A DNA stretch of 64,000 bases. Origin: Pseudanabaena sp. lw0831. Lineage in GTDB: Bacteria; Cyanobacteriota; Cyanobacteriia; Pseudanabaenales; Pseudanabaenaceae. The stretch's first letter is position 1. Each line of letters begins with the position of its first letter. Of this stretch, positions 7,246-62,644 are shown piece by piece. The notes under the pieces are model-generated. The model ran no database searches and was not told the origin of the DNA. It was given only the letters and a program-made list of their open reading frames with translations. Made by a program: the position numbers and the translations under genes. The stretch spans positions 1-64,000 of the forward strand of contig NZ_BBJB01000115.1 of NCBI RefSeq assembly GCF_016584665.1, given 5' to 3'.

Positions 7246-7301
7246 AGGATTTAGGCAAATAAACCAAGAATTTGAGTTCTTGGTTTGTTTGCCTAAGTCC
7301 T
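7246..7301. repeat. Imperfect inverted repeat downstream of the Uma2 gene
   Basis: AGGATTTAGGCAAATAAACC and its near reverse complement (GGTTTGTTTGCCTAAGTCCT) face each other across a short A/T apex, with about three mismatches. It lies between two convergent genes, so a bidirectional terminator is plausible. Its arms are less perfect than the other hairpins of the window. Confidence 0.6.
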
Positions 7302-7308
7302 AGCTCCA

Positions 7309-7815
7309 TTAAATCAGTAACTTGGGTGGAATGGATAAAAATAGAATTCCATTACTCGTCCAAGGTTGCGTTTCGGGTAGAACTAGACCAATAATCCCAG
7401 CTTTTTTTAAAACTAAAACACCCTTAGATTCTCCCCAGACAAGCATTTCTGCCCAAGTGGTCAGATCTGGCTCGTGACCAATAATCCCTAATGAAGCTCT
7501 AGCAGGTTGTGGATGTTGAGCGAGCCATGCAGCCACCCGTTTCAGCCAATCTTCAAAACTGCCATTAGGAGCAAGTTCTGATAGCTGCTGCACAGGACAG
7601 TCACTAAAAACATTAGCAAAAATCTCAGAGGTCTGTTGAGCGCGAACTAAAGGACTAGTTTGCAAGAGATCAAAGCGCAAACCCAATTCATAGAGACGTT
7701 TGGCAACTTGCTTAGTTTTTTTGCGCCCTTCCTCAGTGAGAGGACGTTGCGTATCATCTTCGTAATTCCCGCGATCCTCGGCAATGCCATGGCGGATTAG
7801 GTAAAGACTAGGCAT
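7309..7815 (-). CDS. sixA: Phosphohistidine phosphatase SixA
   Basis: 168 residues, histidine-phosphatase superfamily. The catalytic LIRHGIAED lies at residues 6-14, and the second conserved arginine is in [10 protein letters not shown]; a late GHEPDL supplies the second histidine. SixA removes phosphate from histidine phosphotransfer domains or phosphocarrier proteins in the cytoplasm. It overlaps the end of purQ by 8 bases and is probably co-transcribed with purS-purQ. Confidence 0.9.
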
Positions 7816-8518
7816 TGACTAACAATCTCTCAACTAATACTTCCACCAGTCCTTCAAATAATGCTTTGCCATCGGTTCCACCCAAAATATCTTCCGCAGC
7901 TCTTTCTGGATGCGGCATCATCCCAAGCACATTGCCTTGTTTGTTGCAAATTCCTGCAATATTGTCCAGTGAGCCATTAGGGTTGGCATCGTCATTAACA
8001 TTACCGATCGCATCGCAATAGCGGAACACGACTTGATTGTTATCTTCGAGTTCTTTTAAAGCATCAGCATCCGCAAAATAACAACCTTCTCCATGGGCGA
8101 TCGGGAGGGTAATAATTTGCTGTTTTTGATATTTCTTTGTGAAGGCTAAATCATTGCGCTCAACTCGTAGCGGGGCGCGATCGCAAATAAAATGCAAATC
8201 TCGATTGCGAACTAAAGCACCTGGCAATAGTCCAGATTCCGTTAAGATCTGAAATCCGTTACAGATACCGAGTACATATTTACCTTTAGCCGCATGTTCC
8301 TGTAGCGATCTCATTACGGGTGCAAATCTCGCGATCGCGCCACAGCGCAAATAATCACCATAACTAAATCCCCCAGGCACGACGATTACATCGCAATCAC
8401 TAATGTCTGTATTTGTATGCCAGATTAACCTTGTGGGCTGTTTCAAAATACCGCTGGTGACTGTGGCAACATCGCGATCGCAATTGGAGCCAGGGAAAAC
8501 GAGGATGCCAAACTTCAT
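7808..8518 (-). CDS. purQ: Phosphoribosylformylglycinamidine synthase subunit PurQ
   Basis: Glutaminase subunit of FGAM synthase, step four of purine synthesis; it delivers ammonia to PurL. 236 residues, full length. N-terminus [14 protein letters not shown] is diagnostic. The class I amidotransferase nucleophile is the Cys in VLGICNGFQ, and the His/Glu pair is in MMPHPERA near the C-terminus. Start ATG overlaps the purS stop as ATGA. Confidence 0.97.
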
Positions 8519-8778
8519 GACTTTGACTCCTCAATTATGGTTAACTCAAACCGATAGTTTTCAATAACTGGGTTTGCCAAAAGCTTATCGCAGGTTTCAT
8601 CTAGCTTTTGGGATGCTTCCGCCTCATCTGCTGCATCTAAGATAATTTCAACATACTTGCCAATACGGACTGAGTCAACGTGATAATCCATTTGCTTTAA
8701 CGCCGACTGGACAGCAGTACCTGCGGGATCGAGAACCGATGGACGTAAGGTAACAAATATACGGGCTTGATACTTCAT
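8515..8778 (-). CDS. purS: Phosphoribosylformylglycinamidine synthase subunit PurS
   Basis: 87 residues with start at MKYQARIFVTLRPSVLDPAG, the normal PurS N-terminus; an upstream in-frame ATG (8847) would add 23 residues unlike the family. PurS bridges PurL and PurQ in the FGAM synthase complex. ATGA overlap with purQ shows translational coupling. purL is not in the window. Confidence 0.93.
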   Translation of the reverse strand: MKYQARIFVTLRPSVLDPAGTAVQSALKQMDYHVDSVRIGKYVEIILDAADEAEASQKLDETCDKLLANPVIENYRFELTIIEESKS

Positions 8779-8882
8779 GCTTGCTTTGAAATGATGAGCG
8801 ACTAGCGTCATACTTATAGATAACCGACGCGATCGATCATAACCCAAAAATGGAGGCGGCGCTTTGTATCGCTGTAGTCATT

Positions 8883-8937
8883 CAAAACCGAAAAGAGAGT
8901 TGAGGCGCGAAGCGCCTCAACTCTCTTTTCGGTTTTG
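8883..8937. repeat. 55-bp perfect palindrome, GGCGC-GAA-GCGCC apex
   Basis: Two 26-bp arms are perfect reverse complements around loop GAA. The apical part (GAGAGTTGAGGCGC) resembles hairpins at 13876 and 36165; the outer part (CAAAACCGAAAA) is unique to this site. Lies between purS and the AEC gene end; could terminate the AEC transcript. Confidence 0.95.
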
Positions 8938-8952
8938 TTTTTTGCGATCGCT

Positions 8953-9909
8953 TTAGCCAAAAAAGACGATCCAGATCGGGAGCATAAAAATTAGTCCGAT
9001 GAAAGAAAAGGCGATCGTGCTGATCAGTAAATCGCGATCGAGGTTATAGACTTCAGCCAGAATTAGCACCGATAAACCTGTGGGTGTACCTGACATCAGC
9101 GTGAGAATCAGACGGGGATCGTTGCGGAGTCCAAACATCGTGGCTCCTAGCCCGATCGCTAAAGGTACGATGCCCACGCGCAAAAAAGCCGCGATCGCCG
9201 CAGGTTTGAGACTGTCCCATTTTTCGATTTTGCCTAATCGTAATCCCACTAGAGACAAAGCAAAAGCGATCGTCACCCATACGCCAATATCCAACCCCGA
9301 CTCGATCGCCTCAGGTAACCCGATAGGACGCGTATACCAACCAATCGCAAAAGCCCATAGACTTGGCACAGTGGCAACATCAAGCAATAGTTTCCACCAA
9401 GTCGGCTTCACATCACTTTTGCCGAAGTAGCTGGCAATAAAAACAGCAATTCCATAATTGCCAGCGACGTTACTAGCGATGCTGTATAAAACTGCCCAAT
9501 CAGCATAGGTGGAACTTGCCAGAGAACTGGTTAGCGTCAAGCCCACAAATCCTGTGTTGCCCAGCATTGTTGCCAAAATAAAGCTACCCAAACTAGAGCG
9601 ATCGCTATGCTCCTGTTTCGCAAACTGCCAACCGACTAAAGCCAACAGCCAACTGAGAATCAAGGCTGCGATCGCCACATAGGGAATATAAGGAGTATCT
9701 GAAAATTGCGTGTGTCTGGCGAGGACAAATAGTTGCAATGGCACTCCAACCCAGTAAAGAGTGATGCCCATAAATTTGGAGGTATGGAGCGGCGCAAATC
9801 TGGACGCTACTAAGCCAACCCCTGTCCATACCATCAGTGGGATATAAGCATTGATCAGTTCGCCAAAATGGAAGCTAGACCAAAATTGGTTTGGATCACT
9901 TAACAGCAT
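8953..9909 (-). CDS. AEC-family permease (auxin efflux carrier/malonate-type)
   Basis: 318 residues with about ten hydrophobic segments in two halves, e.g. LINAYIPLMVWTGVGLVA and IALILSWLLALVGW near the N-terminus and LTLMSGTPTGLSVLILAEVY late. The T-P-x-G-x-S stretch and NTGFVGL are typical of the AEC (PIN-like) family. It should be an inner-membrane carrier for organic anions or amphipathic acids; substrate cannot be told. Its first 14 bases overlap the end of the upstream amidase gene, implying one transcript. Confidence 0.88.
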   Translation of the reverse strand: MLLSDPNQFWSSFHFGELINAYIPLMVWTGVGLVASRFAPLHTSKFMGITLYWVGVPLQLFVLARHTQFSDTPYIPYVAIAALILSWLLALVGWQFAKQEHSDRSSLGSFILATMLGNTGFVGLTLTSSLASSTYADWAVLYSIASNVAGNYGIAVFIASYFGKSDVKPTWWKLLLDVATVPSLWAFAIGWYTRPIGLPEAIESGLDIGVWVTIAFALSLVGLRLGKIEKWDSLKPAAIAAFLRVGIVPLAIGLGATMFGLRNDPRLILTLMSGTPTGLSVLILAEVYNLDRDLLISTIAFSFIGLIFMLPIWIVFFG

Positions 9910-11722: not shown

Positions 11723-11817
11723 AATTCCGATTACTTGCTTAGATTAGCAATACAAACAGCACCATTTAATACTAGCGTCATCGCGGAATCTTCAGCGCAA
11801 AACGCTATATTCTGAGT

Positions 11818-11911
11818 TTAAGTAGCTAGACGTAATTAAAAAACCAAAACCAAAATCTGTACCGCCCGCTACGCGGGCGGTACAGATTTTGGCATTTGCC
11901 TAGTTACTTAG
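11818..11911. repeat. MITE-like element, copy A (TIR AGTAGCTAG, core CCAAAATCTGTACCGCCCGC)
   Basis: Outer terminal repeats TTAAGTAGCTAGAC and GCCTAGTTACTTAG enclose a perfect 43-bp hairpin (11850-11892) with 20-bp arms and loop TAC. The same core and the same outer repeats recur at 31089-31184, and similar outer repeats at 37409-37489, so this is a small mobile-like family without coding capacity. Confidence 0.8.
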
Positions 11912-11937
11912 TAAATGCAATTAAAATCAATTAAAAA

Positions 11938-12882
11938 ATGAAAATTTTAGTAATGGGCGGCACAAGATTTATCGGTGTGTCGCTAGTCAAATTGTTGGTG
12001 TCACAGGGACATGAAGTAACTTTATTTAATCGTGGCAAGAAGCCATCACCCGTAGCAGGACTTCGCACGATTATTGGCGATCGCACTGATTCGCAACAAT
12101 TGCAGGACAAACTCAGTGGTGAATCCTTTGATGCGATTTTCGATAATAACGGTCGCGAACTTAGCGATACTCAGCCACTAGTCGAGATTTTTCGCGATCG
12201 CCTTCAGCATTTTGTGTACATGAGTTCCGCAGGTGTATATCTCGATAGCGATATTCTGCCCTACCAAGAATCCGATGCTACTGATCCAAAGAGCCGTCAT
12301 AAAGGCAAGCTGGACACCGAAGCCTATTTGCAACAAGTCCGTGCTGAATCAGGATTACCCTATACTTCCATTCGTCCCACCTATATTTATGGACCACAAA
12401 ACTATAACGATGTCGAAGCATGGTTCTTTGATCGCATTGTCCGCGATCGCCCAATTCCTATTCCTGGCAATGGCAAGTTTATTACCCAACTCGGTCATGT
12501 CGAAGATCTCGCTTCCGCAATGGCAGCCGTCTTAGGCAATCAAAAAGCGATCGGCGAAATTTATAATGTCTCTGATACGCGCTATGTCACCTTTATCGGA
12601 CTAGCCCAACAATGTGCGATCGCTGCTGGTAAAGATCCCAGTCAACTCAACTTTGTCTATTACAATCCCAAAGATTTTGACTTTGGCAAAAAGAAAGCAT
12701 TCCCATTCCGCTTACAACATTTCTTCGCGACCGTCACCAAAGCCCAGCAAGATTTAAACTGGAATCCCAAATACGATCTATTATCTGGATTGCAAACATC
12801 TTTTGAACATGACTATCTTCCTTCAAATCGTCAGCAAGCAGATATTGATTTCTCTACGGATGACCAAATAACTAAAAACTAA
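11938..12882 (+). CDS. NAD-dependent epimerase/dehydratase-like protein, CSP41-like
   Basis: 314 residues. The Rossmann motif MGGTRFIG at 6-13 begins an atypical SDR domain; the tail matches the layout of cyanobacterial homologues of the plastid RNA-binding protein CSP41b (long NAD-binding half, then a C-terminal substrate or RNA part with PFRLQHFFATV). The SDR tyrosine may be in YTSIRPTYIYGP. Whether it acts on nucleotide sugars or binds RNA is open; plastid CSP41 supports chloroplast transcription and translation. Its stop codon lies in the arm of the following hairpin. Confidence 0.85.
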   Translation: MKILVMGGTRFIGVSLVKLLVSQGHEVTLFNRGKKPSPVAGLRTIIGDRTDSQQLQDKLSGESFDAIFDNNGRELSDTQPLVEIFRDRLQHFVYMSSAGVYLDSDILPYQESDATDPKSRHKGKLDTEAYLQQVRAESGLPYTSIRPTYIYGPQNYNDVEAWFFDRIVRDRPIPIPGNGKFITQLGHVEDLASAMAAVLGNQKAIGEIYNVSDTRYVTFIGLAQQCAIAAGKDPSQLNFVYYNPKDFDFGKKKAFPFRLQHFFATVTKAQQDLNWNPKYDLLSGLQTSFEHDYLPSNRQQADIDFSTDDQITKN

Positions 12883-12923
12883 AAGAATCAAAGCACCCGC
12901 GTAGCGGGTGCTTTGATTCTTTT
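12881..12923. repeat. 43-bp perfect hairpin, CCCGC-GTA-GCGGG apex
   Basis: 20-bp arms (AAAAGAATCAAAGCACCCGC) around loop GTA; imperfect pairing continues about 10 bp further on both sides. The left arm starts inside the stop codon (12880-12882) of the SDR gene. Right arm ends in a T run, so it should terminate transcription. Confidence 0.93.
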
Positions 12924-12950
12924 TGGTTTTAGTACGCCAAAGCACTTAAT

Positions 12951-13875: not shown

Positions 13876-13922
13876 ACCCAAGATAGAGTTGCGGTGCTTC
13901 GCGCCGCAACTCTATCTTGGGT
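13876..13922. repeat. 47-bp hairpin, GGTGC-TTC-GCGCC apex
   Basis: 19-bp perfect arms (ACCCAAGATAGAGTTGCGG) followed by one G-T-type mismatch near the apex. The inner stem AGAGTTGCGGYGC is shared with hairpins at 8883 and 36165; the outer stem CCCAAGAT is local. Positioned between the DUF393 and epimerase genes. Confidence 0.93.
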
Positions 13923-18988: not shown

Positions 18989-19451
18989 GAATCAATCCTC
19001 AGCATTATGTTCGGGCTTGCACCGTTAGGCGCGTTCTAAAATTCAGATCGCAACTTAGTTGGATACATTCATTTTGTTGTTGCAAACCATAGCTTAGCAA
19101 CAGCATAAATGTGATTTCAACAAATAGCGATTTTCATCAGCAAATCTTAAACCTATAGCAGTAAGCGTTCTATTCTAGACTCTTGTAAGCTTTAATGATT
19201 TCTTTGTATACAAAGTTTAAGCTAATCTTAACAAACAAAGCCTACAAAAGTAGAGTTGATACTTCACTTTTACTAATTCTAATTATAAAAGTCAGTTTTG
19301 TAGAAATGCTATCATCGCTAGCCTTTATTTCTAGCAGTTATCAAGCAAACGAACCACAATAAATTTTTGAAAGTGCAGCTAGGCATAACTTTCAAAAATT
19401 TATTGGTTCGAGTTTGAGCGCAAAGCGCTGTAAAACTAACTTTTATGATTT
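18989..19451. other. 463-bp non-coding stretch
   Basis: Upstream region of the giant acidic protein gene and downstream region of the aminotransferase gene. AT-rich, with no convincing ORF. Contains the inverted repeat at 19350-19410; nothing else recognised. Confidence 0.6.
19350..19410. repeat. Inverted repeat, AATAAATTTTTGAAAGT family, copy 1
   Basis: Arms CGAACCACAATAAATTTTTG... and ACTTTCAAAAATTTATTGGT... pair around a 13-nt loop containing CAGCTAGGCAT, with a two-base bulge in the left arm. The tail GTTTGAGCGCAAAGC after the right arm recurs after copy 2 (32114-32170). Confidence 0.85.
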
Positions 19452-21397: not shown

Positions 21398-21438
21398 TTG
21401 CAATAATAGGCGGCGCTTTGCGCCGCCTATTATTGCAA
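21398..21438. repeat. 41-bp perfect hairpin, CGGCGC-TTT-GCGCCG apex
   Basis: 19-bp arms (TTGCAATAATAGGCGGCGC) around TTT, four bases after the previous hairpin and four bases before the end of the GFA gene. The two hairpins side by side serve the two convergent genes. Confidence 0.93.
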
Positions 21439-22346: not shown

Positions 22347-22360
22347 ACTCTCTTCCCTGT

Positions 22361-22405
22361 GAATAATTAGTGGTGCGAGGCTTTGCCTCGCACCACTAAT
22401 TATTC
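22361..22405. repeat. 45-bp perfect hairpin in a divergent promoter gap
   Basis: 21-bp arms (GAATAATTAGTGGTGCGAGG then C) around TTT. It lies upstream of both flanking genes (starts at 22346 and 22491), so its arms will be in at least one 5' leader. Confidence 0.93.
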
Positions 22406-22490
22406 ATCTTACAATACCTATTTTTTTTCCTGATTCAAACATTACATCGATCCGACATTGTGGGAAGATTTAGCAGTAAGAAATCCAGTT

Positions 22491-24173
22491 ATGTTTTCGG
22501 CTAATAAATCAATAAGTAGATCAATGAGATATTCGCTGCGTCGCTTTGTGGCTTGGTTTGCGATCGCCATCATCACAATCACCACATTATTTGCCTGTAC
22601 AAATGGCAAAATCATCAATAACGGGAAACTGGGGATTAGCGATCGCACTGATGAGCGCATCGTTTTGGGCACAACCAGCAAAATTCGCACGCTCGATCCT
22701 GCCGATGCCAACGAATTTTTTATCAGCAATATTTTTTACAACACGCTCGAACGTCTTTACACTTACAAAGAAGGTTCAAACGAGATCATTCCACAACTGG
22801 CGGCAGATATGCCTAAGGTTAGTGAAGATGGCTTAATCTATACAGTGCCAGTGCGAACAGGGATCAAATTTCACGATCGCACCAATTTTAATGCCTATAC
22901 AATGAAATTTGCCTTAGACCGCTTCATGAATTCTAAAGGCGCACCAGCATATATCTTGACCGATGTGATCGAAGCCATTTCTGTATCAAATGAAACTGAA
23001 CTGATTTTTAAGCTCAAACAACCTTTACAATTTTTCCCCAAGTTCTTAGCATTTACTGGAGCCGCCGCAATATCTCCGCAAGTTTATAAACATATTAAAG
23101 ATGAAAAGACAGGCAAGCTATTATTCTTGCCTGATAAATTAGTTGGCACTGGTCCCTATCAAGTTACACAGTTTGTCGAAGGTAGCTACTTACGCTTAGA
23201 TACATTTCCAGATTATTGGGGTAAAAAACCTGTCAATAAAGGGATTGATATTCAGTTTTTCTCTTCTAATTCCAACTTGTTGAACGCATTTAAAACTGGT
23301 GCTGTTGATATAGCTTTTCAAACGCTCACGCCAACCCAAGTCAAGAATGTAGAGACCAATGCTAAACAAAATGGTTGGACAATCGCCTCAGGTCAAGGTG
23401 CAACCATCCTATATATGGTATTAAATACGCAGCAAGTACCACTCAATGACGTGCGCGTGCGCCAAGCTTTAGCAGCCGCGATCGATCGCCCTCTGTTGGA
23501 ATCGCGTATATTTTTTAACCAACGTGCTCCCCTATATAGCCTAATCCCTAGCGCTTTTGCAGATTCCAAACCCGTATTCGAGCAAAAATATGGTGATGGC
23601 AACGGTAAACTAGCGCGGCAATTGCTAGAGTCGGCAGGATATTCCGACGATAAACCCGCTCAAATTACAATTTGGTATTCACCAAAATATGGCGGTAACG
23701 GCGACCTCATCGCCAGCACTCTGCGGGCCTCAATTCAAAAAAATGTCGGCAAAATTTTGCAGATCAAAACTGAGCGCGTTGAAAATACTGTTGGTTTTGC
23801 TTTCATTGATAAAGGCGTATATCCCGCCTATTTACTTGATTGGGTTCCCGATATTCTTGACCCCGATAATTACATCAAGCCATTTTTAGAATGTGAAGAA
23901 GCAAATGGCGATCGCTGCACAAAGGGTAGTAGTCAGTTTCAAGGGTCATTTTATAACAACCCAGAAATGAATGAGTTGATTGCTAAACAGCGTAAAGAAC
24001 GTGACGTAGTTAAGCGATCGCAAATACTCCAAAAAATCCAAGAACTTTTAGCTGAGGATGTGCCATTTATTCCGCTCTGGCAAAACAAAGAATACGCCTT
24101 TGCTCAAAAAGGGTTACAGGGAGTCAAAATCGAACCAAACCAACAACTTCCCTACTGGAACATTTCCAAATAA
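22491..24173 (+). CDS. Peptide/nickel-type ABC transporter substrate-binding lipoprotein
   Basis: 560 residues from this start; ATGs at 22458 and 22524 are alternatives. The lipobox is TLFAC within WFAIAIITITTLFAC, so the mature protein is lipid-anchored in the periplasm. SBP_bac_5 (DppA/OppA) motifs: VLGTTSKIRTLDPADANEF, YTVPVRTGIKFHDRTNFNA and LVGTGPYQVTQF. It should bind oligopeptides or similar solutes and deliver them to an ABC importer; the permease genes are not adjacent. The last codon and stop lie inside the next hairpin. Confidence 0.9.
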   Translation: MFSANKSISRSMRYSLRRFVAWFAIAIITITTLFACTNGKIINNGKLGISDRTDERIVLGTTSKIRTLDPADANEFFISNIFYNTLERLYTYKEGSNEIIPQLAADMPKVSEDGLIYTVPVRTGIKFHDRTNFNAYTMKFALDRFMNSKGAPAYILTDVIEAISVSNETELIFKLKQPLQFFPKFLAFTGAAAISPQVYKHIKDEKTGKLLFLPDKLVGTGPYQVTQFVEGSYLRLDTFPDYWGKKPVNKGIDIQFFSSNSNLLNAFKTGAVDIAFQTLTPTQVKNVETNAKQNGWTIASGQGATILYMVLNTQQVPLNDVRVRQALAAAIDRPLLESRIFFNQRAPLYSLIPSAFADSKPVFEQKYGDGNGKLARQLLESAGYSDDKPAQITIWYSPKYGGNGDLIASTLRASIQKNVGKILQIKTERVENTVGFAFIDKGVYPAYLLDWVPDILDPDNYIKPFLECEEANGDRCTKGSSQFQGSFYNNPEMNELIAKQRKERDVVKRSQILQKIQELLAEDVPFIPLWQNKEYAFAQKGLQGVKIEPNQQLPYWNISK

Positions 24174-24208
24174 TCAAAAGGAGCGCTTTGCGCTCCTTTT
24201 GATTATTT
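24168..24208. repeat. 41-bp perfect hairpin, GAGCGC-TTT-GCGCTC apex
   Basis: 19-bp arms (AAATAATCAAAAGGAGCGC) around TTT. The left arm begins with the final Lys codon and stop codon of the substrate-binding protein gene. The inner stem AGGAGCGC-TTT-GCGCTCCT recurs at 28016-28046. Confidence 0.94.
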
Positions 24209-24211
24209 GCT

Positions 24212-24254
24212 CTATAAATGGTTGCTCTCGCGTAGCGAGAGCAACCATTTATAG
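24212..24254. repeat. 43-bp perfect hairpin, CTCGC-GTA-GCGAG apex
   Basis: 20-bp arms (CTATAAATGGTTGCTCTCGC) around GTA. Follows the previous hairpin by three bases, between convergent genes. Confidence 0.93.
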
Positions 24255-27973: not shown

Positions 27974-28007
27974 AACAGGCTAGTCATCCTCGACTAGCCT
28001 GTTTTTT
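27974..28007 (+). terminator. Rho-independent terminator after ycf35
   Basis: 12-bp perfect stem AACAGGCTAGTC with loop ATCCTC, followed by a T tract (GTTTTTTC). Positioned 33 bases after the ycf35 stop. Confidence 0.92.
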
Positions 28008-28015: not shown

Positions 28016-28046
28016 AAATAAAGGAGCGCTTTGCGCTCCTTTATTT
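28016..28046. repeat. 31-bp perfect hairpin, GGAGCGC-TTT-GCGCTCC apex
   Basis: 14-bp arms (AAATAAAGGAGCGC). Same apex and inner stem as 24168-24208 with different outer stem. It stands right after a normal terminator, so termination is not its only purpose. Confidence 0.9.
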
Positions 28047-30250: not shown

Positions 30251-30281
30251 ATTCTCAAAATGGCAACGCCATTTTGAGAAT
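30251..30281. repeat. 31-bp perfect hairpin, AAAATGGC-AAC-GCCATTTT apex, copy 1
   Basis: 14-bp arms ATTCTCAAAATGGC around AAC. An extended copy of the same hairpin is at 54905-54937 and a degenerate one at about 54147-54174. Confidence 0.93.
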
Positions 30282-30309: not shown

Positions 30310-30343
30310 AATTCTCGAAAGTGTGACTACACTTTCGAGAATT
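30310..30343. repeat. 34-bp perfect hairpin, GAAAGTGT-GACT-ACACTTTC apex
   Basis: 15-bp arms AATTCTCGAAAGTGT around GACT. The central 22 bases equal those of the hairpin at 37487-37534, but the outer stems differ completely. It is 42 bases before the start of the small membrane protein gene. Confidence 0.94.
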
Positions 30344-30694: not shown

Positions 30695-30726
30695 AACAAA
30701 AAGGGATGCAAAGCATCCCTTTTTGT
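30694..30726. terminator. Bidirectional terminator-like hairpin
   Basis: 15-bp perfect arms AACAAAAAGGGATGC around AAA with A and T tracts on both sides. It lies between convergent genes and starts at the last stop base of the upstream one. Confidence 0.88.
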
Positions 30727-30731
30727 TGGGA

Positions 30732-31088: not shown

Positions 31089-31184
31089 TATGTAGCTAGG
31101 CGCAAATCCCAAAATCTGTACCGCCCGCGCAGCGGGCGGTACAGATTTTGGATCTGGGTTTTTAATTGGGCCTAGCTACTTAAT
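31089..31184. repeat. MITE-like element, copy B (TIR GTAGCTAGGC)
   Basis: Outer ATGTAGCTAGGCGCAAATCC and GGCCTAGCTACTTAAT enclose a perfect 43-bp hairpin (31109-31151), whose 20-bp arms are identical to those of copy A (11850-11892), with loop GCA in place of TAC. Confidence 0.82.
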
Positions 31185-32113: not shown

Positions 32114-32170
32114 GAACCAATAAATTTTTGAAAGTGTTGCAAAGCAAAACTTTCAAAAATTTATTGGTTC
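32114..32170. repeat. Inverted repeat, AATAAATTTTTGAAAGT family, copy 2
   Basis: 22-bp perfect arms (GAACCAATAAATTTTTGAAA then GT) around GTTGCAAAGCAAA. The tail GGCTTGAGCGCAAAGC mirrors the tail of copy 1 at 19350-19410. Confidence 0.9.
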
Positions 32171-33547: not shown

Positions 33548-34558
33548 TTAGTTAAACCAGCTTGGCATTAATAAAATCGGTGGATCGTAATTGCCTGCTT
33601 GCATATTGTGACCAGTTAGTTTTGAGGTTAGCTGATCAGCGATCGCCCCAGAAATATTTCCTGTACCAGCAATATCAAAAAATGGCAAGGCAATACTAAC
33701 ACTAGTTTGACTGAGTAATTGATCTAAAAGTCTTTCAAAGGAAGCTGGAGATTTACGAATTGGTAATTCGCTTTGCTCAGACAACTTAAATTTTTTTCTG
33801 GATAAATCACGTAAATCTACGATCGCTGCATCCAAAGTTCCTAAAGCATCAACCAGTTTATTCTCCTTAGCTTGTTGTCCTGTATAAATCCGTCCGTCCG
33901 CAAGCTTGCGCACCACTTCTAAATCTAGTTTGCGCCCCTTAGATACATCGGTAATAAATTCTTGATAGGTACTTTGCAAAAGTTCTTGCAGTAATGCACG
34001 CTCTGGATCACCTAGCTCTCGAAATGGCGAAAAAATATCTTTGTAGGGGCCAGTTTTGATCGTTTGCGATTGGATACCCACCCGATCTAGTAATTCTTTG
34101 GCATTAAAGCCACTCAAAATTACGCCGATACTACCTGTCAATGTGCCAGCATTGGCATAAATTTTAGTTGCTGAACTTGCTGCATAGTAACCACCACTGG
34201 TTGCCTGATCGAGCATACTAACCACAACGGGCTTTTTCGCGCTCAAGTCCTTAACTGCATCGTAGAGTTCTTTGCTTGCGCCAACGGTTCCTCCAGGACT
34301 ATTAATTGATAGCAATACTCCCTTTACGGAGTCTTCCTCGATCAGTTCGCGGAGGCGATCGCGTACTGCCATTGCTCCTGATGCTGAAGCCCTTGCTCCT
34401 GTAATTGCACCATCCAAGGAAACTAGTTCAAGGCGATCGCGATCGAGTACTTTCTTTAAATTTAAAGCCTCATCCATTTGGCGGCGCTGAATACCAAATG
34501 TGGCTGAGATAAAGCAAACGGCGACTAAAACGAGAGCAATGATGCGATTGAGTTGCAT
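33548..34558 (-). CDS. sppA: Signal peptide peptidase SppA, S49 (36-kDa type)
   Basis: 336 residues from ATG 34558; the ATG at 34615 was rejected because it starts in a hairpin arm. An N-terminal membrane anchor (IIALVLVAVCFISATF) precedes one S49 domain. The nucleophile is the Ser in LDQATSGGYYAAS and the general-base Lys is in KTGPYKDIFSPFRE; SPGGTVGAS is also typical. It degrades cleaved signal peptides in the membrane and is linked to phycobilisome change under light stress in cyanobacteria. Six bases separate it from the downstream oxygenase, so they share a transcript. Confidence 0.93.
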   Translation of the reverse strand: MQLNRIIALVLVAVCFISATFGIQRRQMDEALNLKKVLDRDRLELVSLDGAITGARASASGAMAVRDRLRELIEEDSVKGVLLSINSPGGTVGASKELYDAVKDLSAKKPVVVSMLDQATSGGYYAASSATKIYANAGTLTGSIGVILSGFNAKELLDRVGIQSQTIKTGPYKDIFSPFRELGDPERALLQELLQSTYQEFITDVSKGRKLDLEVVRKLADGRIYTGQQAKENKLVDALGTLDAAIVDLRDLSRKKFKLSEQSELPIRKSPASFERLLDQLLSQTSVSIALPFFDIAGTGNISGAIADQLTSKLTGHNMQAGNYDPPILLMPSWFN

Positions 34559-34595
34559 AGCAAATTTTTCTGGCGGCTGCTTTAGTTTAGTATAA

Positions 34596-34644
34596 AACCT
34601 AGAAAGGAGAGGCATCGCTTCGCGCTGCTTCTCCTTTCTAGGTT
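34596..34644. repeat. 49-bp hairpin upstream of sppA and chlM
   Basis: 15-bp perfect outer arms AACCTAGAAAGGAGA and an inner stem with two mismatches, apex CGC-TTC-GCG. In the gap between the divergent sppA and chlM genes, 33 bases before the chlM start. Confidence 0.88.
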
Positions 34645-35395: not shown

Positions 35396-35450
35396 AAACC
35401 CCAAAGAGTGAGATGCGGCGCGAAGCGCCGCATCTCACTCTTTGGGGTTT
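35396..35450. repeat. 55-bp perfect hairpin, GCGGCGC-GAA-GCGCCGC apex
   Basis: 26-bp arms (AAACCCCAAAGAGTGAGATG then CGGCGC) around GAA, ten bases after the chlM stop. Confidence 0.95.
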
Positions 35451-37336: not shown

Positions 37337-37393
37337 AAAACTAATTTCAGGAATTTCAGCGCCACGGGCGCTGAAATTCCTGAAATTAGTTTT
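37337..37393. repeat. 57-bp perfect hairpin after hemC
   Basis: 27-bp arms (AAAACTAATTTCAGGAATTT then CAGCGCC) around ACG, starting nine bases after the hemC stop. The first of three hairpins in the 325-bp gap before ilvA. Confidence 0.95.
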
Positions 37394-37408
37394 CTTAAAA
37401 CCTGATGC

Positions 37409-37489
37409 TAAGTATCTAGGCAAAGCCTCAAAAGGCAAAGTGCCCGCTAAGCTGGCACTTTGCCTTTTGAGGCTTTGCCTAGATACTTA
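37409..37489. repeat. 81-bp palindrome, MITE-like copy C (TIR TAAGTATCTAGGC)
   Basis: Arms of 36 bp (outer TAAGTATCTAGGCAAAGCCT) pair perfectly; the apex CGCTAAGCT adds three more pairs with one mismatch. The outer end is like the terminal repeats of copies A and B (AAGTAGCTAGGC), but the inner core is different. Confidence 0.9.
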
Positions 37490-37534
37490 TTCCAACGCCC
37501 GAAAGTGTGACTACACTTTCGGGCGTTGGAATAA
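37487..37534. repeat. 48-bp perfect hairpin, GAAAGTGT-GACT-ACACTTTC apex
   Basis: 22-bp arms (TTATTCCAACGCCCGAAAGT then GT) around GACT. Shares its central 22 bases with 30310-30343, yet the 11-12 bp outer stem is different on both sides. It overlaps the preceding palindrome by three bases. Confidence 0.95.
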
Positions 37535-37653
37535 GTTCCTGATTAAAGATGCGAGAAAAAGAGTAAAATTGTAGCTCACTAAACCAATTCTTATAGTTTG
37601 TAGTACCAACGGCGCGGCAACCTATAAAAATTAATAATTAAGTTGATAGCGTT

Positions 37654-40676: not shown

Positions 40677-40680
40677 TACA

Positions 40681-40749
40681 GAATAAATTACCAAACCCGT
40701 AAAGTTGCGCCCCGCAGGGGCGCAACTTTACGGGTTTGGTAATTTATTC
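40681..40749. repeat. 69-bp perfect hairpin, CGCCCC-GCA-GGGGCG apex
   Basis: 33-bp arms (GAATAAATTACCAAACCCGT then AAAGTTGCGCCCC) around GCA: the longest arms in the window. A short CACCGC-TCT-GCGGTG hairpin follows at about 40771-40785. Confidence 0.96.
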
Positions 40750-41169: not shown

Positions 41170-41416
41170 GCCAGATTGCGACCTACTACATCGTTAATTA
41201 TCGACAAGCAATCCCAACCTTGACTATGTTATGAACATCAGTTTGAGTAGCCTTAATTGCCAAAATGCTTGATTTACAGCAGTTATCGCTCAAGCCCACC
41301 ACAAAATGGGTCGCAGGGCGAAGCCCCGCAATGGGTTTTATATTCTTGTTTGTGGCGGGGTTGAAAGCAAATTGCTGCAAGCGATCTGTTCTAAACAAGT
41401 CATATATCAAATCACC

Positions 41417-45392: not shown

Positions 45393-46937
45393 ATGAATGA
45401 CCTTCTCTCCGCACAGGCGATCGCCACGGCTGCACAAATGCAAGCGATCGAGAATTTGATTTTTCAGGCAGGTATGCCCGTAGCAGCCCTGATGGAAAAA
45501 GTCTCCTTGCGGATTAGCCAAAGGTTAACCGAACTCTTTCCTGTTCAATCCTATGGGCGGATTGGCGTACTAGTTGGCTCTGGTCATAACGGCGGTGATG
45601 CCTTAGTGGTTGCGCGAGAACTGCATCATCAAGGGCGACAGGTGAAAATTTATACACCGTTCCCCAAATCTAAACCCTTAACGCGAGTGCATGGGTGCTA
45701 TGCCAAAAGTTTAGGTATTCCTTTTGTAAATTTGGAAGCATTGCAAGATTGCGATTTGCTAATCGATGGCATATTTGGCTTTGGATTAGAGCGTGATGTG
45801 GTTGGCGATGTCGCGATCGCAATCAACACAATCAATAATTGGCAAATCCCAGTTCTCAGCATTGATATACCATCAGGGCTTCATACCGATCATGGCGGTG
45901 TAATGGGAACGGCGATTTGTGCCACCAATACCTTTTGTTTAGGTTTATGGAAGCGTGGCTTGCTGACAGAAGCTGCTACGCCCTATGTCGGGAAACTCGA
46001 AAGGATCGGATTCGATATCCCCGAAAAATTTGTACTTCAGATCCTTGGTAAGCAACATCCATTATGGCGAATTAATCCCCAAGCAGTAATGCGTGATCGC
46101 CTTCCGATTGCACGCAATCCCATAACTCATAAGTATGAAGTTGGGCATTTACTGCTAGTTGTTGGTTCTCAGAAATATGGAGGGGCTGCGCTTCTTGCCG
46201 CTATGGGTGCAAAAGCCACAGGGGTGGGCATGTTATCGATCGCTGTTCCAAATTCTCTCAAATCTTTGATTCTTGCCCAAGTTCCTGATGCTCTCGTCAT
46301 TGGCTGCCCTGAAACAGAATCTGGCGCGATCGCTTCATGGCCGGATCTCGATTTGCAAAAATATCAAGCGATTGCTTGTGGTTGTGGGCTTTCTACTGAA
46401 GCATTCCCAATTGTGGAACAGATGATAAATAGCGATCGCCCTTTGGTTCTTGATGCTGATGGATTAAATGCTTTAGCTAGTATGGGCAAATCTCAAATCA
46501 CCCAAAAATTAAGTCAGCGCACTAGTGCGCTGATTATGACACCACATTGGGGTGAGTTCTGTCGATTATTTCCAGATTTGCGTGAAGTTGAAAGATTAGA
46601 GGCTCTGCAAATTGCGGTCAATCAAACGCAAGCAACTATTTTACTTAAGGGTGCAAGAACAGCGATCGTGTTCCCTCAGGACACAACATCACAGACATGG
46701 ATCAACCCAGAAAGTACATCAGCCTTGGCAAGAGGAGGCAGTGGCGATGTGTTAGCAGGACTGACTGGGGGGATGTTAGCGCAAGGCATGGCAGCAAGTG
46801 ATGTAGCGATCGCGGCGGCAGTTTGGCATTCTCAAACAGCGATCTGGCTAGCTAGTCAGCGCACCGAGATGGGTGTTGATCCTGTGACTCTTGCTCAAAA
46901 TTTATTGCCATTTTTATCCGCCACACAACTTAAATAA
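45393..46937 (+). CDS. nnr: Bifunctional NAD(P)H-hydrate epimerase/dehydratase
   Basis: 514 residues. N-terminal NnrE/YjeF domain with LVGSGHNGGDALVVAREL, and C-terminal NnrD/ribokinase-like domain with PLVLDADGLNALA and the anion-hole ARGGSGDVLAGLTGGML. It repairs hydrated NADH and NADPH: the first domain flips R to S hydrate, the second dehydrates S hydrate with ATP or ADP. Starts at the base after the PP2C stop. Its last residues QLK and stop lie inside a palindrome that also forms the end of the convergent gene. Confidence 0.95.
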   Translation: MNDLLSAQAIATAAQMQAIENLIFQAGMPVAALMEKVSLRISQRLTELFPVQSYGRIGVLVGSGHNGGDALVVARELHHQGRQVKIYTPFPKSKPLTRVHGCYAKSLGIPFVNLEALQDCDLLIDGIFGFGLERDVVGDVAIAINTINNWQIPVLSIDIPSGLHTDHGGVMGTAICATNTFCLGLWKRGLLTEAATPYVGKLERIGFDIPEKFVLQILGKQHPLWRINPQAVMRDRLPIARNPITHKYEVGHLLLVVGSQKYGGAALLAAMGAKATGVGMLSIAVPNSLKSLILAQVPDALVIGCPETESGAIASWPDLDLQKYQAIACGCGLSTEAFPIVEQMINSDRPLVLDADGLNALASMGKSQITQKLSQRTSALIMTPHWGEFCRLFPDLREVERLEALQIAVNQTQATILLKGARTAIVFPQDTTSQTWINPESTSALARGGSGDVLAGLTGGMLAQGMAASDVAIAAAVWHSQTAIWLASQRTEMGVDPVTLAQNLLPFLSATQLK

Positions 46938-46980
46938 ATAAAGTCGGCGCTTCGCGCCGACTTTATTTATTTAAGTTGTG
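46924..46980. repeat. 57-bp perfect palindrome spanning both convergent gene ends
   Basis: 27-bp arms (CACAACTTAAATAAATAAAG then TCGGCGC) around TTC. The left arm encodes the end of nnr (TQLK-stop) and the right arm encodes the end of the GGDEF-EAL gene (AQLK-stop) in mirror image, so the two unrelated proteins end with the same residues. Confidence 0.97.
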
Positions 46981-52864: not shown

Positions 52865-53980
52865 CTAATTCCCCAAATGAGCGAAAAATTTGCAAACAGA
52901 CGCTGGTTTGACTGGACAAACCTTCTCCCTGATTTCATTGTCACCGAGTCCAATTGAAGTCAAATTCGTCAAGCCTGATAGCGGTTTAATATCAATGATT
53001 TGATTGCCGTAGAGATCGAGCCTAGTCAAGTTTTTCAAGCCCGATAGCGGTTTAATATCAATGATTTGATTGCCGTAGAGATCGAGCCTAGTCAAGTTTT
53101 TCAAGCCCGATAGCGGTTTAATATCAATGATTTGATTGCCGTAGAGATCGAGCCTAGTCAAGCTCTTCAAGCCTGATAACGGATTGATATCAATGATTTT
53201 ATTGCTGTTGAGATCGAGTGTAATCAAGTTCGTCAAGTTCGATAGTGGTCTAATATCACTGATTTTATTGTTAGAGATCCTGAGTCCAGTCAAGTTCGTC
53301 AAGCTCGATAGTGGCTTAATATCAATGCTTGGATTGAGAGCGAGAGTGAGATCGAGCCAAGCCAAATTAGTCAAGCTCGACAGAGGTCTAATATCACTGA
53401 TCTTATTGTTAGAGAGACTTAGTTCAGTCAAGTTCGTTAAGCTCGACAGAGGTCTAATATCACTGAGTTGATTGGTGCCGAGATCGAGTGTAGTCAGGTT
53501 CGTCAAGCTCGATAGCGGCTTAATATCACTGATTTGATTAGCTTGGATAAGGAGTGAGGTCAACTTATTTAATCTCGCTAGAGGTCTAATTTCACTGATT
53601 TTATTGGAAATGAGACCGAGGTCAGTCAATTTAGTCAAACTCTTTAGTGGTTTAAGATCGCTGATTTGATTGCCGTTGAGATACAGGTGAGTCAAATTAG
53701 TCAAACTTGCTATGGGCTTAAGATCGCTGATTTGATTGCCGGAGAGGTTGAGATCGGAAAGGTTGTTGAGTGTAGAATTAGCCAACTTACAGTCTTGTGT
53801 TCCAACTTTCTTTAACATTGCATCAACTGTCTTTCTAGTTTCTGCGGGGAGAGAATCTTTTTGCAGACACCATTGTTCAAAGCTTTGATTTTGAGTCGGA
53901 ACTGCCTGTGCTTGTAAAACTTGAAATAAAAAAAGAACTGTGGTGGCAGAGAGGATATTCAAGGCTAAAGAAGATTTCAT
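52865..53980 (-). CDS. Secreted leucine-rich-repeat protein (internalin-like)
   Basis: 371 residues. Signal peptide ATTVLFLFQVLQAQA, then a short helical cap (QSFEQWCLQKDSLPAETR) and about 12 LRRs of 22 residues with consensus L-T-x-L-x-L-x-x-N-x-I-S-D-I-x-P-L-x-x-L-x-N, and an end cap with CPVKPASVCKF. The solenoid binds an unknown ligand at the surface or periplasm. Three repeats are identical at DNA level, see the repeat entry. Confidence 0.92.
   Translation of the reverse strand: MKSSLALNILSATTVLFLFQVLQAQAVPTQNQSFEQWCLQKDSLPAETRKTVDAMLKKVGTQDCKLANSTLNNLSDLNLSGNQISDLKPIASLTNLTHLYLNGNQISDLKPLKSLTKLTDLGLISNKISEIRPLARLNKLTSLLIQANQISDIKPLSSLTNLTTLDLGTNQLSDIRPLSSLTNLTELSLSNNKISDIRPLSSLTNLAWLDLTLALNPSIDIKPLSSLTNLTGLRISNNKISDIRPLSNLTNLITLDLNSNKIIDINPLSGLKSLTRLDLYGNQIIDIKPLSGLKNLTRLDLYGNQIIDIKPLSGLKNLTRLDLYGNQIIDIKPLSGLTNLTSIGLGDNEIREKVCPVKPASVCKFFAHLGN
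52981..53178. repeat. Three 66-bp tandem repeats in the LRR gene
   Basis: Units starting at 52981, 53047 and 53113 are the same for nearly all their length (GCGGTTTAATATCAATGATT ...), diverging only at the end of the third (AGCTCTTC vs AGTTTTTC). They encode the LRR unit ending YGNQIIDIKPLSGLKNLT, which indicates recent unequal exchange. Confidence 0.95.
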
Positions 53981-55931: not shown

Positions 55932-55966
55932 AAGAGAATGGCGGCGCAAAGCGCCGCCATTCTCTT
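55932..55966. repeat. 35-bp perfect hairpin, GGCGGCGC-AAA-GCGCCGCC apex
   Basis: 16-bp arms AAGAGAATGGCGGCGC around AAA. Six bases before the end of the glycosyltransferase gene, whose transcript it would follow. Confidence 0.92.
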
Positions 55967-58612: not shown

Positions 58613-58630
58613 TTTCGTAGGGAAGAATAA

Positions 58631-58723
58631 TTAAAGGGTTGAGACTGCATTTGCCAAAACTAAAACGGCGATCGAACCAGCGTAGAACTTGAAGATAAAT
58701 CCGCCGAAGTGAAATACTGACAT
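58631..58723 (-). CDS. 30-residue membrane microprotein, tandem copy 1
   Basis: MSVFHFGGFIFKFYAGSIAV then LVLANAVSTL, 30 residues, stop TAA. AGGAG lies seven bases before the ATG, a strong site. Single predicted membrane span. Paralogous to the next gene downstream. Its length and layout recall small thylakoid subunits (PetN, PsbM, PsaM), but the sequence matches none that I can recall. Located between the TVP38 and geranylgeranyl-reductase-like genes on the same strand. Confidence 0.75.
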   Translation of the reverse strand: MSVFHFGGFIFKFYAGSIAVLVLANAVSTL

Positions 58724-58846
58724 TGCTCTGCTCCTTTTTTCTTTAACTCTTGATGTACTTAGTATCAAGCTTTTTTAAGAGTCAGGTGGTGATGTCAGCG
58801 TTGAGTTAGTTTGAATTTGATCACATTATTTATGTGATCGCGATCA

Positions 58847-59641: not shown

Positions 59642-60609
59642 TTGCAACATCCACCACCGTAATAGTGCCATGTAGAATCTGAGATCATCACCTCTTGAGG
59701 AAACTTTTCCGCAAGTTTTGAAGCAGTTTTATCGCATACAGATGTAGGATTACCACGCTGCAAAACATGCCCAGCGCGATCGTCTAAGGATGTCTCCATG
59801 CCGCTATAAACTGCGGTTTTACCTGTAAATACACAGGCTCCATCACTGGGAATAGGAACCTTGAATGATACAGAATCTAGACTCTCTAACATTAGCGGTG
59901 TATCCAAATCAAAACTATGGGTATCGAGCAAACGATAGGGACGACGGGCGCGGACTTCAATCTGTCCAAATCCTGCTTCAATCAGATAATGAATATATTC
60001 GTCATAGGTCATGGCTCCCGATAAACACATGGCTCGTAGACGTTCATCAGCTTGGAGATTGGCAGGAATCGGACGAGTAGAGATTGGGTCGCTCATAATT
60101 AATCTGCCTTTAGGTTTGAGAACTCGATAGACTTCTTTCAAAGCTCGTTGTAGGTCTTGAGGCTCGAAAATATTAAATAGACAGTTTTGGGCAACCACAT
60201 CAACCGAGGCATCGGCAACTGGTAATGCAAAAGCATCTCCTTCTAAGATATTTACAAAATCTGTATCAAACCAATCATTCTCTTGAGCCGCTAATTTTAA
60301 ATTATGACTTGCCACTTCGCGCATAGCAGCTACAGGATCGACAGCGATAACACTTCCTTTTCGGCGACAGAAATACGCAAATTGAAGAGCTTCTAAACCA
60401 CCACCAACGCCAATATACAAGACTGTTGGGTTACCGCGTAATTCTGTAGGATGGATGGTTGTACCACAGCCATAGTTCATCTGCTCAATGATTTGAGGGA
60501 TTTTGAGATTGGGAAATTGTAGTGGTGGCGTGCTGATGCAGCACAGACCAACTTGCGGAGTTTTTGCGGCTTCCGCGTAAAATTCGGCGGTGGTTTCGAG
60601 ATAGCTCAT
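59638..60609 (-). CDS. arsM: Arsenite methyltransferase ArsM, arsenosugar-biosynthesis type
   Basis: 323 residues. Cysteines in GLCCISTPP, MNYGCGTT and AQNCLFNIFEP and the end YYGGGCCK match the arsenosugar-pathway ArsM. SAM site is VLYIGVGGGLEALQFAYFC. It adds methyl groups to As(III) using SAM; dimethylated product is the start of arsenosugars. The radical-SAM partner ArsS is not in the window. The TVP38 gene follows by an ATGA overlap. Confidence 0.93.
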   Translation of the reverse strand: MSYLETTAEFYAEAAKTPQVGLCCISTPPLQFPNLKIPQIIEQMNYGCGTTIHPTELRGNPTVLYIGVGGGLEALQFAYFCRRKGSVIAVDPVAAMREVASHNLKLAAQENDWFDTDFVNILEGDAFALPVADASVDVVAQNCLFNIFEPQDLQRALKEVYRVLKPKGRLIMSDPISTRPIPANLQADERLRAMCLSGAMTYDEYIHYLIEAGFGQIEVRARRPYRLLDTHSFDLDTPLMLESLDSVSFKVPIPSDGACVFTGKTAVYSGMETSLDDRAGHVLQRGNPTSVCDKTASKLAEKFPQEVMISDSTWHYYGGGCCK

Positions 60610-60682
60610 GCAGATTTACTCAAGAAAAACAATTGGATCGGCGGCAATATGAGATTAGTCTAACCTTTTTATGGGCTGACGC

Positions 60683-60736
60683 AAAAGGAGGTAATGTAAG
60701 GGCAATTCATGAATTGCCCTTACATTACCTCCTTTT
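60683..60736. repeat. 54-bp perfect loopless palindrome, GGGCAATTCATGAATTGCCC core
   Basis: 27-bp arms AAAAGGAGGTAATGTAAGGG then CAATTCA, joined without a loop. Core is shared with 57096-57123, outer stem is not. Confidence 0.96.
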
Positions 60737-60785
60737 ACATAATCAAAAATTTATTGATTCTTGTAAATGTAAATCGCTGTAAGAC

Positions 60786-60814
60786 AAAAAAAGGGCGCTA
60801 AGCGCCCCTTTTTT
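60786..60814. terminator. Terminator-like hairpin, GGGCGC-TAA-GCGCCC
   Basis: Six GC pairs plus an A/T outer stem with one mismatch (A versus C at the base). Right after it the large exported protein ends at 60817. T tracts occur on both strands. Confidence 0.8.
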
Positions 60815-60816
60815 AG

Positions 60817-62454
60817 CTAAAACAAGGTCGAAATACCATTTGGGCGCAGATCTTTGTAATCTAGAATCTTGCGAACTACATCGAAGGTAGACTGCGAATC
60901 TGTAATAGGAATTACAGAAGCTAGCTGCCCTGGTAGAACCTGCATTACAGGAGGCATGTCCTGTGTGAATACATTAATCGTGCGATTAATCAGTGAATAA
61001 TTGCCTTTGGAAAAAGCGTTGGTATAGGTGAATTGATTGGTTGCTTGAGGTAGTCCTGCAACATTAAACAAACCAAGTGGAATACTTTGAGATGTTGTCA
61101 AAAAGCTTGCAACTGTTTGAGTTAGAACGGTTGTCGTCTGGATTTGAGTGAAATAGTCATAGACTCTGACATTACGATCAATTTTACCAATGCGCTGAGA
61201 GTCGATACCACAGACAGTGCGAATAGTGCCATATGCTGATGGATCGCTGGGTAAAATCAGGCTAATGGTTGAGAAGTTTTTAAGCAGTTGCACTTCGCTA
61301 TATCCTAGAGGACGATTATTCAAGTCGAATAAACGGACAACTAGGCGATCGCCTGGATTCAGCCCACGGATAAAGGTAGCACGCTGATTAACGTTAAAAC
61401 GATAATCACCAACAAAGCGCTCTTTGAGAAATCCATTAGAACGCTTCGATTTGATCGAAAGACGTGCAATTACCTGAGACAAGCGCGGCTGATTTTGCAA
61501 AACTGCAAAGCTAAAATGTCCACGATGAGGATTCTTTTTAGATAGCTCAACGCCATCACGCTCCTTGCGCTCTTTGCGATCGGTTCGGCGATCGTCATCA
61601 TAGTCATCATCTTCATCGTCGTCATCATATTTTTTGGAGACAACGATGGGCTTCATTGGTTTAACAGAACTACCTGTCTGGACATTTGTGTTTTCAATGA
61701 CCACCGTTTGAGTAGACTGCGTAGTCGTTGATTGAGAACCAGTTGTAATTCCCAAATCGCGATCGGAAATTACTGAATTGTTGGAGGAGTTATTTGATGA
61801 ATTGTTGGAGGAGTTATTTGATGAATTGTTGGAGGAGTTGTTGGATGAATTGTTGGAAGTACTAGTGTACACAGAAGAAATGCGTCCAGCTTTTACCTCA
61901 GTTGCACTAGCTGTGACAATTGAAGTAAAGGATTTGACTTCTTCGATCTCAAATCTCGCATCTTTGACACCATTGGGCAAGTCATAGCGAATGCTAGTAA
62001 TCGCCTTGAGATCGCCATTGTAAATATCATCAAGAGAGATTTTTTCGCTCAGGGAACTTAGGGAAATCACTTCTACTGCTGTAAACTGTCGCCCTGCATT
62101 TTTGGAGAGCAGTCTTGCGCCTGAATTGGTATAAACTTCGCGCCATTCCCCAGCACGTTTTACATAAAGCTGATACACCGCGTTTGCGTAGGTAGTCGAA
62201 GGCTTATTGGCAACATCTAGTAAAATGCCAATGCTTGAAAGGTTGCCAGAGTTGTCTAGCAAACGCAATAGCTGTACGCCTGTTTGCCAGTCCTGTGGAA
62301 CTTGAGCAACTATTTGGGGAACAGATGGAGCTGCGATCGCTTCTATAGTATTCAGAAAAGATGCTGTAGTAAGAGTTGCTGCGAGAAGACATAGAGATGT
62401 CTTCTGAAATCTGTTGCCTATTTGGCTACGAAAATTTTTACTGACAATATTCAT
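60817..62454 (-). CDS. Large exported hypothetical protein with Asn/Ser repeat linker
   Basis: 545 residues. Signal peptide CLLAATLTTASFLNTIEAIAA, cleavage after AIA-A. Residues about 50-190 form a globular domain (GVQLLRLLDNSGNLSSIGIL and WREVYTNSGARLLSKNAGRQ). A (SSNN)-rich linker of about 30 residues (about 195-230), an acidic DDDDEDDDYDDD stretch, and a C-terminal beta-rich part with NQRATFIRGLNPGDRLVVRL follow. Likely periplasmic or outer-membrane associated. No family recognised. Confidence 0.82.
   Translation of the reverse strand: MNIVSKNFRSQIGNRFQKTSLCLLAATLTTASFLNTIEAIAAPSVPQIVAQVPQDWQTGVQLLRLLDNSGNLSSIGILLDVANKPSTTYANAVYQLYVKRAGEWREVYTNSGARLLSKNAGRQFTAVEVISLSSLSEKISLDDIYNGDLKAITSIRYDLPNGVKDARFEIEEVKSFTSIVTASATEVKAGRISSVYTSTSNNSSNNSSNNSSNNSSNNSSNNSSNNSVISDRDLGITTGSQSTTTQSTQTVVIENTNVQTGSSVKPMKPIVVSKKYDDDDEDDDYDDDRRTDRKERKERDGVELSKKNPHRGHFSFAVLQNQPRLSQVIARLSIKSKRSNGFLKERFVGDYRFNVNQRATFIRGLNPGDRLVVRLFDLNNRPLGYSEVQLLKNFSTISLILPSDPSAYGTIRTVCGIDSQRIGKIDRNVRVYDYFTQIQTTTVLTQTVASFLTTSQSIPLGLFNVAGLPQATNQFTYTNAFSKGNYSLINRTINVFTQDMPPVMQVLPGQLASVIPITDSQSTFDVVRKILDYKDLRPNGISTLF
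61775..61858. repeat. 24-bp tandem repeat coding for the Asn/Ser linker
   Basis: Unit TTGGAGGAGTTATTTGATGA then ATTG, starting at 61781, 61805 and 61829 with slight change in the last. It encodes SSNN repeats on the minus strand. Prone to copy-number change. Confidence 0.9.
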
Positions 62455-62607
62455 CGTTATTTATTCCTAGCTCGATTTACTGCATGATTTGCTAGAGTCA
62501 ACCTATAGTTGTTAACGCACGGCTATATAGGCGCACAATACGTCACGATATAGGCATATTAAGTCTTTAACAATCAGACGATCTCCTCGTTTTTTTTGTT
62601 CCATTTC

Positions 62608-62644
62608 AAAAATAAAAGCAGCCTGAAGGACTGCTTTTATTTTT
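62608..62644. terminator. Bidirectional terminator-like hairpin
   Basis: 14-bp arms AAAAATAAAAGCAG around CCTGAAGGA; T tract of 8 downstream on the plus strand, A tract on the other side. Apex CCTGAAGGA is the mirror of the common TCCTTCAGG terminator loop. It lies 28 bases before the end of the 139-residue gene and would terminate it. Confidence 0.88.

Follow-up and report, generated by a model that had tools for sequence, protein, structure and literature searches.

Intergenic DNA in the window analysed here, a 64,000-nucleotide stretch of Pseudanabaena sp. lw0831 (bases 1–64000 of contig C115, NZ_BBJB01000115.1; genome size 5.26 Mb), carries many palindromes with near-perfect arms, and comparison with related genomes shows that both arms of a stem often change together and that the loop between them often inverts. 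We consider it likely that these palindromes form two overlapping populations, hairpins at gene 3′ ends that are probable terminators and repeated, mobile palindromic elements that occur in any gap, and that the arms of both are re-copied from one another by template switching during replication.

An inverted-repeat scan (net stem of at least 12) of positions 7245–62644 returned 38 inverted repeats with arms of 12–40 nt, 31 of them free of mismatches. A second, independent repeat finder was concordant, and Markov shuffles of the window (n = 5) contained none. The initial annotation, made by reading the sequence alone, had reported more than 30 mostly perfect intergenic inverted repeats, a count that is borne out here, and all of the apex families it listed were located (Table 1). 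It had also proposed extending the scan to the whole genome and to close strains. Genome-scale counts are based on 891 kb of the source genome (G000), in which 457 palindromes were found, extrapolating to ~2,700 per genome. For stems of at least 16, density was ~36 per 100 kb in the source genome and 27–69 per 100 kb in most relatives (lower in G014 and in a short P. mucicola locus), whereas loci from other cyanobacteria had roughly 2 per 100 kb and 1 Mb of non-cyanobacterial loci had 0.6 per 100 kb. A search with a window protein identified Pseudanabaena mucicola FACHB-723 as the closest named relative (94% identity). An Rfam search of the window gave no matches.

Within the sampled DNA, 178 of the 457 palindromes had at least five further copies, 116 had one to four and 163 had none. 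Outer stems had been described as unique to each place, which is correct only in part: ~40% of the palindromes belong to repeated families, and the remainder are single- or few-copy. For example, the palindromes at 11850 and 31109 have an entire 20-bp arm in common (75 sites of this arm genome-wide), outer arms are common to 30251 and 54905, and one arm is common to 19357, 32114 and 54840. In one family, the base AAACCCAAA and the apex GGCGGCGC are fixed, and the mid-stem is variable yet mirrored. Elements of the CCCGC family are ~100 bp long and bounded by terminal repeats TAAGTAGCTAGGC/GCCTAGCTACTTA, with pairs of the terminal inverted repeat (TIR) TAAGTAGCTAGGC spaced 80–110 bp apart. Only this family combined short, non-autonomous elements, TIRs, many copies and insert-free sites, as in miniature inverted-repeat transposable elements (MITEs). 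TIR pairs of the TAAGTAGCTAGGC type also bound two longer spans in the source genome (C95:79977-81414 and C54:53501-55245), which contain open reading frames (ORFs) of 285–350 aa and are candidate autonomous partners of these MITEs. Transposition had been dismissed in the initial annotation on the ground that fixed elements never yield local stems. That argument is ruled out by the existence of families in which the ends are fixed but the mid-stem varies; many palindromes lie inside mobile families whose ends are fixed, and the suggested comparison of orthologous gaps for empty versions revealed insert-free sites (e.g., the ortholog of 31109 in four relatives). A seed resembling repetitive extragenic palindromes (REPs) had been put forward, with a search for a REP-associated tyrosine transposase (RAYT) as a check, and a RAYT/REP origin was rejected for lack of support: the only Y1_Tnp match in the genome is a single weak one (G000:C48:61833-62099), and no palindrome occurs across its 3.3-kb locus. 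A separate ~105-bp repeated element (41274–41381), missed by the palindrome scan, is present in many copies in all relatives.

Hairpins outside the repeated families lie at a median of 9–10 bp from the nearest stop codon, and 59–65% are located within 20 bp of a gene 3′ end, compared with 39% if placed uniformly. Their left-arm profile comprises a C-G closing pair, G/C-rich positions 1–8 and ~60% A at positions 9–18, paired with T, and strong RNA folding is predicted. Location after a stop codon and a GC-rich stem of ~8 bp followed by a T-tract are hallmarks of intrinsic terminators; judging by this anatomy, the single- and few-copy gene-end hairpins are probably bidirectional intrinsic terminators. 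The earlier idea that some sites were later adopted as terminators is not borne out in that form; given this anatomy, the proximity to stop codons and the low breakage of stems in convergent gaps, terminators are not an afterthought. A pure terminator reading is nevertheless insufficient, given that repeated families and palindromes in divergent gaps are common. An imperfect hairpin (34596–34644) that covers the start of ORF 33548–34615 keeps its position in seven relatives, where its flanks are strongly conserved, and is possibly regulatory rather than a terminator.

Orthologous gaps were compared with relatives at ~90% identity (G008, G010, G017 and G019) and at ~80–85% (G005, G012 and others), most of them draft assemblies, and three pairs were treated as sisters based on similarity (G000/G017, G008/G019 and G005/G012). 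A palindrome was present in 247 of 340 orthologous gaps. When all species pairs are pooled, 236 of the 5224 stem pairs had changed in both arms and remained Watson-Crick (mirrored doubles), counting only stems at least 75% identical and with species pairs not all independent. Between sisters, 55 of 1718 stem pairs carried mirrored doubles, where independent change of the two arms at the per-base rate observed would give ~2, an excess of ~25-fold. As examples, hairpins at C57 8512 and C57 142217 differ from G017 by five mirrored changes (none unpaired) and three mirrored changes, respectively. The initial annotation had named independent compensatory substitutions in these gaps, or G-U-rich stems in relatives, as findings that would favour RNA selection over copying; the doubles show no preference for G-U. 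Transitions and transversions are distributed alike among doubles (147:89) and singles (213:150; P = 0.39), and 25 of the 55 sister-pair doubles are reachable through G-U; in rRNA, the G-U-reachable type accounted for 61% of the changes classed as instantaneous and for 78.5% of those made in two steps (PMC8794818). Single changes read on the sense strand in tandem gaps led 15 times to G-U and 18 times to A-C. The near absence of G-U from stems had been offered as evidence against RNA folding, and G-T pairs are indeed rare in the source genome (52 of 8580 stem pairs), but A-C pairs are rare too (34). Pairing changes also tend to be all-or-none within a hairpin (30 mixed hairpins versus 45 expected; 0/2000 permutations as low). 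Mirrored and all-or-none changes are the pattern expected of copying, because one copying event would correct a whole stem. Mirrored doubles exceeded expectation in divergent gaps as well.

Exact inversion of the spacer between the arms provides a second line of evidence. Of 121 compared 3-nt loops in alignable hairpins, 42 were the same in both genomes, 38 were exact reverse complements and 41 differed otherwise. Exact inversions made up 15 of the 22 loops that had changed between sisters, whereas the composition of the loop pool would predict 2.6 (P = 8e-10). Where flank divergence was below 12%, the ratio of same to inverted loops was 29:30, and loop orientation is therefore close to randomised. 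Longer loops invert too, including one of 14 nt with one mismatch. Elsewhere in the genus, two flips (48642 and 54598) distinguish G002, a single-contig assembly, from G020, assembled in nine contigs; their stems are identical and the flanks are ~2.5% diverged. Arm homogenization and spacer inversion have been attributed to template switching in Saccharomyces (PMC8604942) and likewise in RNA-hairpin genes (PMC8794818). From these footprints, we attribute the loop inversions here to template switching and not to RNA selection.

Under the proposed mechanism, replication would switch template between the arms of a hairpin so that one arm is re-copied from the other, in both populations. Re-copying would convert a one-arm mutation into a mirrored change or erase it, a switch spanning the loop would invert it, and selection for termination would then filter the gene-end hairpins. 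Both the switching step and termination in the cell are what we infer from footprints and anatomy. The copying of arm from arm at the DNA level that the initial annotation had favoured is supported by the mirrored multi-base changes, their ordinary substitution spectrum and lack of G-U preference, the all-or-none pattern and the inverted loops; the dismissal of transposition does not hold, and no support emerged for the REP/RAYT lead. Gaps were classified with a simple ORF picker. Mirrored and single changes stood at 37:20 in convergent gaps, compared with 26:65 in tandem gaps and 27:63 where genes diverge (P = 8e-6), which indicates that broken stems are purged most strongly where termination must work in both directions. 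Stems thus break least in convergent gaps, and hence selection and copying both act; the best reading is that broken stems are eliminated by selection on termination, an effect clearest in convergent gaps.

Several observations weigh against this reading. Single changes outnumber doubles in alignable hairpins (163 versus 90), and copying is therefore not fast relative to mutation. The stems at 12871 and 13876 are wholly replaced in G008 with their position retained, which arm copying alone cannot explain and for which insertion or recombination is needed. On the sense strand, static mismatches lean weakly towards G-U (65:44, P = 0.055), which, together with the context-dependent ratio of doubles to singles, means that RNA-level selection contributes. 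Moreover, species pairs share ancestry, the counts cover only the more similar stems, and alleles may also come in by recombination. Known suppressors of hairpins are not simply missing either: the genome has two SbcD-like genes as well as ExoVII, and loss of suppressors was rejected as the cause. The ExoI C-terminal domain was not found, an uninformative result given that only E. coli has it among 14 control genomes.

Selection on RNA structure could be taken further, with the hairpins acting as terminators or mRNA stabilisers whose stems change by ordinary compensatory substitutions, partly via G-U. Strong 3′-end placement, terminator anatomy, the low breakage in convergent gaps and the static G-U excess would fit, but we regard RNA selection alone as improbable: transversions are as frequent among doubles as among singles, singles lack a G-U preference, mirrored changes occur at adjacent positions, doubles are in excess even in divergent gaps, and RNA selection does not produce exact loop inversions. 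Transposition alone is less probable still. Insertion, loss and replacement of REP- or MITE-like copies would account for the ~40% of palindromes in families, TIR-bounded elements, insert-free sites and hairpins replaced at one position, and re-insertion in the opposite orientation could mimic loop inversion. However, single-copy hairpins mirror and flip at the same base position within conserved flanks (30695, 21398 and 35396, and 48642 and 54598 in G002/G020), and some changed hairpins contain a stop codon inside an arm. Assembly or library artefacts behind the flips and mirrored arms are very unlikely, for although perfect hairpins make difficult templates and the relatives are mostly represented by drafts, the palindromes (about 40–70 bp overall) are below common read length, mis-assembly is not expected to yield mirrored stem substitutions, and flips are present between the single-contig and nine-contig assemblies.

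A C-G pair closes the loop in 461 of 469 palindromes with 3-nt loops, and 52% of these loops are GNA or TNC, compared with 12% in the C-NNN-G background (56% in repeated families versus 32% in single- and few-copy hairpins). DNA mini-hairpins with GNA loops on two G-C pairs are extraordinarily stable; d(GCGAAGC), for example, has a Tm of 78 °C (PMC4686876). This suggests that the apex is shaped by DNA folding rather than RNA folding. More tentatively, the genus may have unusually active template switching, with thousands of terminator and mobile-element hairpins that renew themselves by mutation, each one-arm change being soon mirrored or erased, and a GC-GNA-GC apex, as in the d(GCGAAGC) mini-hairpin, as folding nucleus. 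If so, the perfection of the terminators would largely reflect mutation bias and not selection on each base pair.

Small hairpin loops in chloroplast noncoding DNA undergo a flip-flop in which the loop inverts and the stem stays, as here. Short inverted repeats in Saccharomyces also show arm homogenization and exact, reversible spacer inversion (Abraham & Hazkani-Covo 2021, PMC8604942), including GAA/TTC loops on 10–11-bp arms, but those events number a few dozen and lie in coding genes, whereas the intergenic hairpins involved here run to thousands in each bacterial genome and loop orientation is near 50:50 by 7–12% divergence. Template switching in RNA hairpins (Monttinen & Loytynoja 2022, PMC8794818) likewise yields inverted loops and compensatory changes of several bases; in those rRNA and microRNA genes, loops are constrained and inversions rare, whereas loops here seem free and flip often. 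Terminator-like stem-loops of low-GC Firmicutes (Petrillo et al. 2006, PMC1590033) are similarly symmetric A-tract/T-tract hairpins at gene 3′ ends, in which a 5′ A-rich stretch pairs with the 3′ uridines, but here the arms are longer and perfect, and they show turnover from one sister species to the next. Small mobile palindromic repeats and MITEs of cyanobacteria (Nezha; small dispersed repeats of Elhai et al. 2008; GTAG-REPs, PMC3733652) are comparable in being short, intergenic, multicopy palindromes, some TIR-bounded, and differ in apex and ends; here there are several families with locus-specific mid-stems and no adjoining RAYT gene. Each ingredient is already known, and what stands out is the scale, together with a loop orientation that is nearly random at 7–12% divergence.

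Paired stem changes are routinely taken as proof of selected RNA structure, and a DNA-level process appears here to yield the same pairs along with loop flips. With thousands of hairpins in one genus, RNA selection and DNA copying become separable and their rates measurable, and the persistence of perfect stems, an old question, becomes directly testable. If correct, this calls for caution with covariation-based RNA calls in such genomes. Individual palindromes of the window are listed in Table 1.

Table 1. Palindromes, apex families and repeated elements in the window, with differences seen in relatives
Feature	Position	Strand	Detail
Apex GGCGC-NNN-GCGCC	e.g., 8883, 35396		
Apex CCCGC-NNN-GCGGG	11850, 31109		
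Apex GAAAGTGT-GACT	30310, 37485		
Apex AAAATGGC-AAC	30251, 54905		
Apex GGGCAATTCATGAATTGCCC	60683		
Palindrome with AAACCCAAA base and GGCGGCGC apex	8883..8937		GAA triloop, T-run on one side
CCAAAATCTGTACCGCCCGC palindrome within ~100-bp MITE-like element	11850..11892		
Convergent gene-end hairpin	12871..12933		Wholly different perfect stems at same position in G008, G017, G019
Palindrome with AAACCCAAA base and GGCGGCGC apex	13876..13922		Orthologs differ
~100-bp repeated element around palindrome 19357–19405	19333..19434		High-copy in genomes of all close relatives, 80–89% identity
Terminator-like hairpin overlapping stop codon	21347..21393		G017: TC>AA mirrored by GA>TT
Hairpin	21398..21438		G008: loop inverted (TTT>AAA), stem with three mirrored changes
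Hairpin	22360..22406		Loop TTT in G008, AAA in G017
Hairpin, stop codon of ORF 22458–24173 in left arm	24167..24209		G008/G019: TC>CG mirrored as GA>CG; mirrored G>A
Second hairpin in convergent gap of 24167	24212..24254		
Short terminator-like hairpin	27974..28003	+	Arms identical in five relatives, no turnover
Hairpin	28016..28046		TTT/AAA loop inversion between species
AATGGC-AAC palindrome, repeated family	30251..30281		Loop inversion AAC>GTT
AAAGTGT-GACT palindrome, repeated element	30310..30343		
Hairpin	30695..30727		Loop inversion AAA>TTT in G008, G017, G010, G005; mirrored 2-bp insertion in G017
Palindrome of the 11850 (CCCGC) family	31109..31151		Insert missing at orthologous site in G008, G017, G005, G012
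AAGTGTTGC-apex palindrome, same family as 19357	32114..32170		
Perfect 26-bp stem	35396..35450		G008: loop GAA>TTC; G017: mirrored C>G
Three-palindrome cluster	37337..37536		Different hairpins in this gap in relatives
GTTGCGCCC-apex family palindrome	40681..40749		Perfect 33-bp arms
Perfect 27-bp stem, convergent gap	46924..46980		
Hairpin	55932..55966		AAA>TTT loop inversion between species
GGGCAATTCA-apex family palindrome, loopless	60683..60736		

Two coding loci in the window are of separate interest. A gene on the reverse strand (3174–6206) encodes a NACHT protein of 1010 aa that carries an N-terminal NNH3 domain as well as pentapeptide repeats and may be a defence NTPase. The region at 52865–53980 has many partial matches of ~65–70% identity, found in tandem-like clusters in relatives (contig C27 of G008 and contig C19 of G017), and resembles a paralogous array.

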